Positions 13,436-20,060 of a stretch of 36,197 nt of DNA are shown in pieces. The translations under genes and the position numbers were made by a program. The stretch lies in NCBI GenBank assembly GCA_903919125.1, contig CAIXGS010000073.1, forward strand, positions 1 through 36,197, written 5' to 3'. The notes beneath the pieces are model-generated. The model was given only the letters and a program-made list of their open reading frames with translations, was not told where the DNA came from and did no database searches. Numbering within the stretch: the first letter of the stretch is position 1; every line of letters begins with the position of its first letter. This stretch comes from an uncultured Spartobacteria bacterium (GTDB taxonomy: Bacteria; Verrucomicrobiota; Verrucomicrobiia; Chthoniobacterales; Chthoniobacteraceae).

Positions 13436-13664
13436 CAGGCAACCATCGAAAGTTGATCGGCTTGGAAGCGGGATGCGCCTAACATTTATGCGTGTCTTTG
13501 CGAGTTGAAGACGCCCCATGGCGGGCGATACCTGCTGGACGTTTTTATTTCGCAAAACTTTGGTGTTACGAAAACTTATATCCTTGGCTAATAAATGTAG
13601 CCGCGATTGTAGCCGAATTGAGCGGAACGGGTCGCGCCTTCTGGCTCCTAAACGTAGGCCCCCC

Positions 13665-16600
13665 ATGAAACATAATCTCACCTTTCTATCTTTCACGCTG
13701 GCGGCGTTCACTGCATTGGAGCTAACCGCTGCTGATTCGCTCCCACACTCTTCGCCAGCAGGACCCCGTGCGATTACCACCCCCGCCGCAAACGACGATG
13801 TCCGGAAGGTCACGGAGACCTTCGCCGCTCGCGGTATACAACGCGACGACACGCCTCCCACTTCGCCTGAAGACTCGCTGCGAACCTTTAGCGTTCGAGA
13901 GGGGTTCGCGCTGGACCTCATGGCAGGCGAGCCAGATGTGATGCAACCGCTTTACATGAGCTGGGACTCACGGGGCCGCATGTGGGTACTAGAATATTTG
14001 CAGTACCAATTTCCAGCCGGTCTAAAAGTCATCAGCTACGACCAACATTTGCGCGCGCAATTTGATAAGGTTCCCGAACCGCCTCCCAAAGGCATAAAGG
14101 GCGCTGATCGCGTTTCTGTCTTTGCGGATTCAAAAGGCAGTGGCTTTTTTGACTCACACAAAGTGGCGTTAACTGGGCTGAACATGGCGACGGCTGCCAT
14201 TAAGGGGGCCGGAGGCATTTGGGTGATGAACCCACCGTACCTGTTGTTTTACCCAGACGCGAACGACGACGATATTCCAGACGGAGATCCGCAGGTATTG
14301 CTAAGTGGGTTTGGCATGGAGGACACCCATTCCATGGCGAATAGTCTACGCTGGGGGCCGGACGGCTGGCTTTATGGTGCGAATGGAAGCACAACGACGG
14401 GAGACGTTTCCTCGGTGGTTAGTAAACACGTAAAGTTCCAAGGACAGCACATCTGGCGTTTCCATCCAAAGACCAAAATCTTCGAGATATACGCCGAGGG
14501 AGGAGGAAACACCTTTAGTACAGAGATTGATGCGCAGGGTCGCGTATTCAGCGGAACCAACGGCAAGGATCGCGGGATGCACTACGATCAGGGCATGAGC
14601 GGGACCAAGGCATTTGGAAAACATGGTCCGCCGCTAAACCCGTATGCATTTGGATATTTCGAACACATGGAAACCAAAAGCGACGGCAAACGTTTCAGCC
14701 AAGCTCTAGCGGTTTACGACGGCGGGCTCATGCCTGAACTCGAGGGACGCATTCTTGCAGCCAATGCGATGCAGAACCTGTGTTACGTCAGTCGAAGAAT
14801 TCCAAGCACGTCGACATTTCGTACCGAAGACGAGCCAGAGTTGCTCCACAGTTCTGACCGGTGGTTTCGCCCCGTGGACCTAAAGGTCGGCCCCGACGGC
14901 TGCGTATATTTCGCCGACTGGTACGACACTCGCCTGAGCCATGTGCGCCCGATCGACGACTGGAGCAAAAACGATGGGCGCATCTATCGAGTCCGTCCAA
15001 AAGGCGTGGAGGTCGGTCTCAAGCCGTTTAACTTGCACACGGCACCGGTGGTTGAATTGGTCGCGAATCTGAAACACGCGAACAAATGGTTTCGGGTCCA
15101 GTCCGCTTTAGAACTGAATTGGCGTGGAGAGACATCAGCGCTCCCGGACTTGCAGAACCTCGCCTGCGACGTGCGAAATCCCCACGCGCTGGACGCTCTT
15201 TTTGCGCTGCACATGCTGGGCGGTTTGAGCGAGTCCATCGCCATCGAGTTGTTGCAGCATCCGGATCCATACGTCCGGCGCTGGGTGGTGCGTTGCATTG
15301 GAGACGAGGGCGAGACGACCGCGCCGCTTACAACTGCGTTAACTCAACTCGCAGCAAATGAGATGTATCCTGAAGTCCGTACGCAGCTTCTTTGCAGCGC
15401 CAAGCGACTTCCTGCAAAGGTCGCCCTGCCCGTGGTACGCACCATGATGGAACGCGATGCCGATGCCACCGACCAACGCATCCCACTTCTGCTATGGTGG
15501 GCGATTGAGGCCAAAGCAGAGTCGGACAGAGACGCTGTGCTCTCCTTGTTTAAAAATCCGGATGTCTGGAATTTAAAGCTCGCTCGAACTTTCAGCATAC
15601 AAAACCTAGCGAAGCGATACGCACTGGCTGGGGGTAAAGAAAACTTTGAGTCCTGCGCGAGGCTTCTTTCTCTTGCGACGCGAAACGAGGACCGGAGCCT
15701 CGTCATCGAAGGAATTGCGGCTGCTTTTGAAGGCGGTAAAATGCCAGAGCTCCCAGCGACTCTATCGGACGCAGTCGAATCGCACATGAAGAGCCAGATG
15801 GACGGCGACCTCGCTCTGGCCGTGAAAACTGGAAGCTCGGATGCTTTCAAGAAAGCACTGGGCATTGTGGCCGACAAAAAAGCGCCGATGGCAAACCGCG
15901 CTACTTTGATTAGGGCGCTGGCAGAGGTCGGCGGAGAGAAGGCCGTTCCGGGAATGCTCGGTATTTTATCAAGCAGTGGTGAAGTCGGGTTAAAGAAAGT
16001 CGTCCTCTCGGAAGCAGCGCGCTTTGACGAGCCAAAGATCGCACAAACGGTTGTAACGGGCTACGAGTCGCGCTTTGCGGGTGAGCCTGGACTGCGCGAC
16101 GCCGCGATTCGGATGCTTGCGGCTCGCAAAGAATGGGCGCAATTGTTACTCAACGAAGTGGACAACCATCGAGTGAAAGCCGCCCATGTGGCACCGGACG
16201 TTCTCCAACAAATCGCGCTTTACCACGACGCGGCGATTGACGCACTGATCCAAAAGCACTGGCCACCGGCGAATCTCAAACTCAACAACGCTCAAAAGCT
16301 CGCAGAGTTGCAGAGGCTCAAATCACTAGCGCAGACCGTTCAAGGAGACATGGAAAAGGGACATGAGCTTTTCACGCAACGCTGCTCGGCGTGCCACACA
16401 CTTTTTCACGAAGGTGGAAAAGTGGGTCCAGAACTGACAGGCTACGAACGCAACAACATGGACTTTTGGCTAGTGGCAATTCTGGAACCGAGCCTAGAAA
16501 TTCGAGAAGGCTTTGGCGCCTACATTTGCAAACTGAAAGATGGCCGGATTCTGATGGGAACCATCGACAAACAGGATGCGGGCGGCGTGGTCATCAAGGA

Positions 16601-16745
16601 TGTTGCGGGACAACGGCACACGCTCCGACAGTTGGATATCGAGAGCCTTGAGGCTTCGCCGACTTCCCTCATGCCGGAGGGCCTTCTAGGCGGGTTAAAT
16701 GACACACAACTCAGTGACTTGTTCGCGTATTTACGAAAGCCGTAG
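13665..16745 (+). CDS. PVC-type heme-binding CxxCH dehydrogenase with HEAT-like repeats
   Basis: I start at the ATG at 13665, giving 1026 residues and a signal peptide (MKHNLTFLSFTLAAFTALEL); an in-frame ATG 147 nt upstream would bury that signal. Residues about 66-440 form the N-terminal propeller typical of planctomycete/verrucomicrobial proteins (FALDLMAGEPDVMQPLYMSW, RGRMWVLEYLQY, LRWGPDGWLYGANGS, GPDGCVYFADWYD). Residues about 460-890 are helical, HEAT-like (DPYVRRWVVRCIGDEGE). A C-terminal cytochrome c domain has the heme site CSACH at 907-911 followed by GGKVGPELTGY and LEPSLEIREGFGAY. A periplasmic quinoprotein- or sugar-dehydrogenase-like role passing electrons to heme is inferred. 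A decayed copy of its 3' end lies at 19934-20060. Confidence 0.92.
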   Translation: MKHNLTFLSFTLAAFTALELTAADSLPHSSPAGPRAITTPAANDDVRKVTETFAARGIQRDDTPPTSPEDSLRTFSVREGFALDLMAGEPDVMQPLYMSWDSRGRMWVLEYLQYQFPAGLKVISYDQHLRAQFDKVPEPPPKGIKGADRVSVFADSKGSGFFDSHKVALTGLNMATAAIKGAGGIWVMNPPYLLFYPDANDDDIPDGDPQVLLSGFGMEDTHSMANSLRWGPDGWLYGANGSTTTGDVSSVVSKHVKFQGQHIWRFHPKTKIFEIYAEGGGNTFSTEIDAQGRVFSGTNGKDRGMHYDQGMSGTKAFGKHGPPLNPYAFGYFEHMETKSDGKRFSQALAVYDGGLMPELEGRILAANAMQNLCYVSRRIPSTSTFRTEDEPELLHSSDRWFRPVDLKVGPDGCVYFADWYDTRLSHVRPIDDWSKNDGRIYRVRPKGVEVGLKPFNLHTAPVVELVANLKHANKWFRVQSALELNWRGETSALPDLQNLACDVRNPHALDALFALHMLGGLSESIAIELLQHPDPYVRRWVVRCIGDEGETTAPLTTALTQLAANEMYPEVRTQLLCSAKRLPAKVALPVVRTMMERDADATDQRIPLLLWWAIEAKAESDRDAVLSLFKNPDVWNLKLARTFSIQNLAKRYALAGGKENFESCARLLSLATRNEDRSLVIEGIAAAFEGGKMPELPATLSDAVESHMKSQMDGDLALAVKTGSSDAFKKALGIVADKKAPMANRATLIRALAEVGGEKAVPGMLGILSSSGEVGLKKVVLSEAARFDEPKIAQTVVTGYESRFAGEPGLRDAAIRMLAARKEWAQLLLNEVDNHRVKAAHVAPDVLQQIALYHDAAIDALIQKHWPPANLKLNNAQKLAELQRLKSLAQTVQGDMEKGHELFTQRCSACHTLFHEGGKVGPELTGYERNNMDFWLVAILEPSLEIREGFGAYICKLKDGRILMGTIDKQDAGGVVIKDVAGQRHTLRQLDIESLEASPTSLMPEGLLGGLNDTQLSDLFAYLRKP

Positions 16746-16965
16746 AGGCGACAGTTTGGTACCATTGTCTCCAAAGACGTAGAATCATTCTCCGTGGACA
16801 GTTTAGTGTCAGCGGCAGAACCGCCCTGACCCTTCCCCGACTCGCGATGCTTGATCCCAGGTGAATATAAACCTAATGATTCGCTTAGGACGATGAGCGT
16901 TTCCGCCCCATTTTTAAACTGCGCAACCACCCCAAACACTTACTCACGCAGGTGAGGCGCACACC
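16746..16965. other. Intergenic stretch before the photolyase gene
   Basis: No gene is supported here. A good Shine-Dalgarno match, GGTGAGG at 16951-16957, sits 8 nt before the photolyase ATG; this is one of the few clear ribosome binding sites in the window. Confidence 0.5.
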
Positions 16966-19687: not shown

Positions 19688-19724
19688 ACGGTTTTGGCCG
19701 TCGGTGAATCCCGAGGGACAGACA

Positions 19725-19829
19725 CGAATGGCACTTAGTTAAGGGCGTCTTTCGTGGGATTTTTACATCAACGAAAAGGAGTGCCGTACTGCGATCGCCC
19801 GAAAAAGCGTCTTAGCTAAGTGCCATTCG
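19725..19829. mobile_element. MITE-like inverted-repeat element
   Basis: Two 19-bp arms face each other with one mismatch: CGAATGGCACTTAGTTAAG at 19725-19743 and the complement of CGAATGGCACTTAGCTAAG at 19811-19829. Looser similarity extends a further roughly 15 bp inward on both sides (GCGTCTTTCGTGGGAT versus GCTTTTTCGGGCGAT). The word GGGACAGA flanks the element as a direct repeat (19715-19722 and 19829-19836), which could be an 8-bp target-site duplication. It is too short to code for a transposase. The whole could also fold as a long RNA hairpin. Confidence 0.55.
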
Positions 19830-19933
19830 GGACAGAGACTTGCCCTCCGACGTCAGGTGAGGCTGATGCAACCTCTACAGGAGTTGCCGCTTATTTTGTG
19901 GGAGTGCATCCGCATTGCCAACGCCAAGGGCGT

Positions 19934-20060
19934 TGAATCTTCCAGCCTAGGGTTGGGCCGACGTCCCTCATGCCAGAGCGTCTTCTGGGTGGGTTAAGCG
20001 ATTCACAACTCATTGATGCGCTCGCATACTTACGAAAGCTGCAAAGGCGACAAGTTGATT
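19934..20060 (+). pseudogene. Remnant of the 3' end of a PVC-type heme-binding CxxCH protein gene
   Basis: Translating from 19961 gives TSLMPERLLGGLSDSQLIDA then LAYLRKL, which parallels the C-terminus of the intact gene at 13665-16745 (TSLMPEGLLGGLNDTQLSDL then FAYLRKP). Hand alignment of 19960-20052 with 16661-16753 gives about 78% nucleotide identity with no gaps, including bases past the intact gene's stop codon. The copy has lost that stop (TAG to CAA) and is preceded by an in-frame TGA at 19934, so it is non-functional. It may mark a deleted paralogue. Confidence 0.75.

Follow-up and report, generated by a model that had tools for sequence, protein, structure and literature searches.

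An IS4-type MITE that inserts specifically into a dispersed, probably TIRYT-type repeat in an uncultured Spartobacteria bacterium

The locus described here raises the question of whether a pair of inverted arms enclosed by direct repeats, lying downstream of a small membrane-protein gene, represents a mobile element or a local transcriptional signal and, if mobile, where the element ends and what determines its position. The window, which is the whole stretch of 36,197 nucleotides that was analysed, is part of contig C73 of a 4.34-Mb draft genome (87 contigs, 95% complete). The inverted arms and the flanking direct repeat described in the original prediction are both present at this place, and the arms, separated by a 67-nt spacer and differing by one mismatch, correspond to 18-bp terminal inverted repeats (TIRs; Table 1). 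A 19th base pair had been assigned to the arms but C19725/G19829 belongs to the flanking repeat, where its pairing is coincidental. Likewise, the direct repeat had been recognised as an 8-bp sequence, which is the perfect core of an 11-bp duplication containing one mismatch, and the element, placed by the prediction at 19715–19836, is confined to the segment between the two duplications. The chance of an 18-bp inverted repeat with no more than one mismatch within ~100 bp is ~0.003 per 36-kb window (hand calculation). No open reading frame of 80 aa or more lies inside the element. The decayed gene copy mentioned in the prediction is real, as 19957–20052 matches 16658–16753, the C-terminal end of ORF 13518–16745, at 79%.

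Table 1. Features of the element and its immediate surroundings, in window coordinates.
Feature	Position	Strand	Remark
MITE, IS4-type, 103 bp, no coding capacity	19726..19828	+	13 two-ended copies; 41 TIR matches
Left TIR, 18 bp, GAATGGCACTTAGTTAAG (A-end)	19726..19743	+	
Right TIR, 18 bp, GAATGGCACTTAGCTAAG on the minus strand (B-end)	19811..19828	-	
Interior, 67 bp, asymmetric; makes A-end and B-end distinguishable	19744..19810	.	
Left 11-bp target-site duplication, GGGACAGACAC	19715..19725	+	
Right 11-bp target-site duplication, GGGACAGAGAC, one substitution	19829..19839	+	
TT beyond the right duplication, continuing the target motif GGGACAGACAC-TT(T)	19840..19841	+	
Upstream small membrane-protein ORF, 122 aa	19319..19687	+	Left duplication starts 28 bp past its end

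The element is a real non-autonomous transposon, present in about 20–25 copies in its own genome. A search for other genome copies, as the original prediction had advised, revealed a multi-copy family, with 41 matches to the TIR (up to 3 mismatches) in the 4.34-Mb genome versus 1 for a reversed-pattern control. Thirteen two-ended copies were extracted (12 measuring exactly 103 bp, the other 97 bp), displaying a mean pairwise identity of 88%. All 13 are bordered by an 11-bp duplication whose two copies differ by 0–3 bases and are direct repeats, rather than the inverted pair that defines a REPIN or BIME. Most duplication pairs have diverged by 1–3 bases, and the copies are thus not fresh. A few copies were also identified in the congeners G004, G008 and G009. 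At the position orthologous to the window locus, G001 can be aligned almost as far as the flanking repeat, beyond which the sequences differ, while the alignment with G011 reaches the end of the upstream gene, and the element is absent from both. The many genome copies and the absence from the orthologous locus of a sister species bear out the MITE reading of the original prediction and are the reverse of the single, conserved terminator-like structure that it had named as contrary evidence; a conserved local terminator is thus excluded. A conserved structure past the small membrane-protein gene, either a functional RNA or a terminator hairpin, is extremely unlikely, in spite of a strong hairpin (-45.9 kcal/mol, z = -4.3) located shortly past the stop codon, since the site has neither a U-run nor a terminator call, no Rfam match was obtained, the orthologous locus lacks the hairpin and the copies occupy ~20 unrelated genomic contexts. 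The copy number and the lack of the element at orthologous loci refute this possibility as its primary identity, although the inserted transposon could act secondarily as a transcript hairpin.

The original prediction overlooked that the duplication is 11 bp long, is near-identical at nearly every copy and represents a genome-wide target repeat. Thus, 37 of 38 element ends directly adjoin GGGACAGACAC, in forward or reverse-complement form, with up to 3 mismatches, compared with 0.33% of random positions. The motif was found in forward and reverse orientation in ratios of 10:8 at the A-end and 8:7 at the B-end. A motif owned by the element would have one polarity, and its independence of the element interior means that it is not part of the element. 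Genome-wide, GGGACAGACAC occurs 180 times, versus 1 occurrence for the control, and is mostly unoccupied. The 55 unoccupied sites examined share CGCAG-GGGACAGACAC-TTT, with a T next to the core in 54 of them, and occupied sites often retain CGCAG beyond one copy of the duplication and TT(T) beyond the second. Retention of the flanking context together with an 11-bp duplication is what insertion into a pre-existing repeat predicts. The 11-mer is the duplicated target and not the end of the element, which inserts specifically into pre-existing CGCAG-GGGACAGACAC-TTT.

A similar association was observed in 28 other genomes, where GGGWCAG, with no more than one mismatch, directly borders 97 of 107 distinct ends (random positions, 0.47%), a value that is slightly biased by a few loci found with a motif-containing query, the pattern-based searches having been made with queries devoid of the motif. 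Tandems of the form [element]-GGGTCAG-[element] were identified in G083, G022 and G081, and tandem insertions with a shared duplicate would follow from regeneration of the target at each insertion. Tandem IS4-type elements and MITEs sharing a single GGGWCAG duplicate were noted at loci L195, L196, L197, L131 and L133. The GGGWCAG tails look genome-specific, which is only suggestive in chunks chosen around element matches.

Spreading of the copies between GGGACAGACAC repeats through assembly artefact or homologous recombination, with no transposition involved, would account for the many copies that lie near other repeats and contig ends, and for the gene that is cut beside the repeat at one locus (C76). 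However, the 13 two-ended copies have mostly different flanks, 12 of them measure exactly 103 bp and all carry short duplications, and the same pattern recurs in separate genomes and with full-length insertion sequences (IS), such that this explanation is extremely unlikely. The prediction had advised a search for an empty site; the joined flanks of 11 sites searched in 11 congeners gave partial matches only, and a clean empty site, comprising both flanks and a single motif, was not found among them. C76, the best candidate for an empty site, was rejected, as its left and right flanks lie apart in G006, which indicates rearrangement. Its left flank consists of a nucleotidyltransferase-like gene, which G001, G006 and G008 carry uninterrupted at this point, and its right flank is located elsewhere in G006 with a degenerate motif. 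In the element's own genome (G000, C76:318170-318294, L010) the nucleotidyltransferase-like gene is cut right beside GGGACAGACAC, and on the other side of the cut is sequence that in G006 lies 3' of a vapC-like PIN gene. C76 is a rearrangement breakpoint at the target repeat. The rearrangement hotspot proposed in the prediction was not demonstrated for the window locus, though a gene remnant adjoins it.

Full-length IS that might own the ends were sought through a DDE_Tnp_1 search of TIR-carrying genomes, and the hit in G083, a genome of the same order, was then used as query. The G083 IS measures 1599 bp and has perfect TIRs (GAATGGCGGTAAGATAAG). Its transposase matches NF033592 (transpos_IS4_1) with 206 bits versus a cut-off of 115, as well as PF01609 and PF13006, with Nterm_IS4 above the Pfam cut-off, and displays a readable YREK motif (Y-x2-R-x3-E-x6-K, YAERWGVELHFHQIK). 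Intact IS of the same order in G022 (1552 bp) and G036 (1864 bp) are flanked by perfect duplications of CGGACTGACCC and GGACCTGTCCC, respectively, and, outside the order, relatives from Nitrospira and a gammaproteobacterium present TAGCCTGTCCC and GGGCCAGGGCT, respectively, twice. When reverse-complemented, the duplications begin with GGGTCAG (G022), GGGACAG (G036) and GGGACAG (Nitrospira). Elements with similar ends and unrelated duplications include those from Marinobacterium (CACTCAGATCC), Chroococcidiopsis (CTCTCTGAAGA), Acidovorax (GTATTAAGGC) and Acaryochloris (ISAcma16, TIR CAATGGCACTGACTTA; duplication AACCCTAACTC). The duplication is 10–11 bp long throughout the relatives with similar ends, and the combination of similar ends with unrelated 10–11-bp duplications means that the ends stop at GAATGG and do not include the repeat. 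GGGWCAG specificity is thus restricted to some members of the group.

The GAATGG ends are of the 5'-NA type described for the IS4 family, in which target duplications are about 10 bp (PMC2266710), and the 11-bp duplication fits the IS4-family range (10–13). The TIR of Escherichia coli IS4, TAATGCCGATCAGTTAAG, matches GAATGGCACTTAGTTAAG at 13 of 18 bases; the IS4 copy examined has a 12-bp duplication, and the transposase identity is 26%. The window element therefore shares with IS4-type elements duplications of ~11–12 bp, and its matching full-length elements encode a DDE transposase with Nterm_IS4 and YREK. In contrast with IS4 and ISAcma16, whose duplications are unrelated sequences, the window element comprises 103 bp, has no gene and uses one target repeat. 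IS with matching ends, which the original prediction had recommended looking for, are thus present in related genomes but were not found in the genome of the element itself. In this 95%-complete draft, where repeats break the 87 contigs, neither an IS4 transposase, nor Nterm_IS4, nor a homologue of the G083 transposase was detected. The only DDE_Tnp_1 match of this genome, on C11, was rejected as an autonomous IS, as the stretch read contains no matching end. The closest candidate parent, known by one end, is a longer multi-copy element of G039, whose end is ~80% identical to the first 58 bp of the A-end consensus; only this end is assembled, the body contig being absent from the G039 assembly, in which contigs end near 3 kb. 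The lack of a detected IS4 transposase and the divergence of most duplicate pairs by 1–3 bases suggest that the MITE family may now be immobile in its own genome.

The landing site itself resembles the repeats of another class of mobile elements. The names TIRYT and TIRtrons have been given to tyrosine (Y1, HUH) transposase genes lying between terminal inverted repeats with GGGGWSAS in common (PMC3733652), and most TIRYT belong to subclass 2.1 (PMC6006769); in the open-access literature the term TIRYT was found in these two articles only. On contig C36, a Y1 transposase gene (L023:721-1725) encodes 334 aa that match PF01797 with 44 bits, above the cut-off, and NCBIfam REP_Tyr_transpos with 61.9 bits, below the cut-off of 80. 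This gene is bracketed by inverted GGGGACAG motifs, with GGGGACAGACAC located ~47 bp before the start and inverted GGGGACAGGTGC past the end, and at least two truncated Y1 transposase copies also start behind GGGACAGACAC. The target motif occurs in addition as inverted dimers, as on C80 (GGGACAGACACTTTCT...AGAAAGTGTCTGTCCC). Similar to TIRtron/TIRYT repeats, the landing site thus shares GGGGWSAS, is dispersed, forms inverted dimers in part and has one bracketed Y1 gene. On the basis of this well-bracketed gene and the published consensus, the target is likely, though not proven, to be a TIRYT-type repeat; here such repeats are the target and not the element itself.

The same observations could be read differently, with GGGACAGACAC as the integral outer part of a 125-bp, REPIN-like mobile unit mobilised by the TIRYT/RAYT tyrosine transposase to which GGGACAG belongs. 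The motif does accompany nearly every copy, a lone IS4-type end abuts the 3' motif of the Y1 gene whose inverted GGGGACAG motifs are described above, and in a unit on C24 the motifs are inverted around a lone IS4-type end. However, the polarity of the motif is random in relation to the interior (10:8), the motif pair is direct where TIRYT repeats are inverted, IS4 relatives with like ends in other phyla carry unrelated 10–11-bp duplications, and the unoccupied motif is far commoner than the element. We consider this interpretation very unlikely and strongly disfavour it.

Taken together, the element is very probably an IS4-type MITE that is mobilised in trans and inserted, in either orientation, into the dispersed repeat CGCAG-GGGACAGACAC-TTT, most likely a TIRYT/RAYT terminal repeat. 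The copy number, the ends, the 11-bp duplication, the identity of the target, insertion in either direction and the presence of matching IS4-family elements in relatives can be read directly from the sequences. We infer from them mobilisation in trans, reading of the target by the transposase itself and the assignment of the target to TIRYT, while the identity and chemistry of the mobilising enzyme are proposed from knowledge of the family. A full-length IS4-type insertion sequence would supply, in trans, a DDE transposase that recognises the 18-bp ends, excises the 103-bp element and inserts it into GGGACAGACAC through cuts staggered by 11 bp, thereby duplicating the 11-bp core. Insertion would take place in either orientation at the short dispersed CGCAG-GGGACAGACAC-TTT, and each event would leave two copies of the landing site, such that the repeats of another mobile element serve as landing sites.

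Insertion of IS elements into repeats has precedents. Five IS families, IS4 among them, are known to contain elements specific for dispersed palindromic repeats, and all 10 of the 10 listed copies of ISRm22 (IS4 family, Sinorhizobium meliloti) lie inside dispersed extragenic repeats (REPs) (PMC1525189). ISRm22 is a full-length IS in alphaproteobacterial REPs, whereas the present element is a MITE and occupies a GGGGACAG repeat, probably of TIRYT type, in Verrucomicrobiota. IS1397 and ISKpn1 (IS3) and IS621 (IS110) insert specifically into enterobacterial REP/BIME and are, as here, repeat-targeted, but they involve other transposase families and targets and were tested experimentally, while the present case is built on sequence. 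In the open-access literature we found no account of an IS inserting into TIRYT repeats. The element is otherwise unremarkable as a mini-transposon, but its landing site is unusually strict; unlike the known cases of repeat-specific IS insertion, it is a MITE rather than an IS, and its target is probably TIRYT-type. In this way an IS4-type MITE joins the short list of elements inserting into RAYT/TIRYT-type repeats, and the GGGACAG "direct repeats" next to such elements should not be taken for random duplications of the usual kind. A broader proposal, for which we see the case as evenly balanced, is that an IS4-family sublineage and its MITEs are specialised on TIRYT terminal repeats (GGGWCAGNNNN) in several families of one order and possibly in other phyla, following the host's own version of the repeat and regenerating the landing site at every insertion. 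If so, one selfish element would provide a self-renewing safe haven for another, leading to nested and tandem arrays. The elements with these ends, comprising GGGWCAG-restricted and unrestricted members, form a natural set in which the transposase residues responsible for reading the target could be compared.

Additional repeats were observed around these sites. A second family displays the same TIR with a different interior (GGCGCTTTTAGCGCGCCTGTCTCCTTCAT) and is represented in G000 at C24:20654-20752 and from C79:44568 onwards, and at L034 in G009; the C24 unit is enclosed by inverted GGGACAGACAC motifs, an arrangement that resembles capture of an IS4-type end by a TIRYT-type unit. In G001 and other congeners, the target motif often has as its neighbour a further high-copy repeat (TCACGCTTTCAGG...GATGCCGGAGGCATCAAAGCCATTA), which is found at many G001 contig ends. 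In the window, the downstream flank (19838–19963) is part of yet another multi-copy repeat, with copies in C56, C79, C12, C53 and C30.
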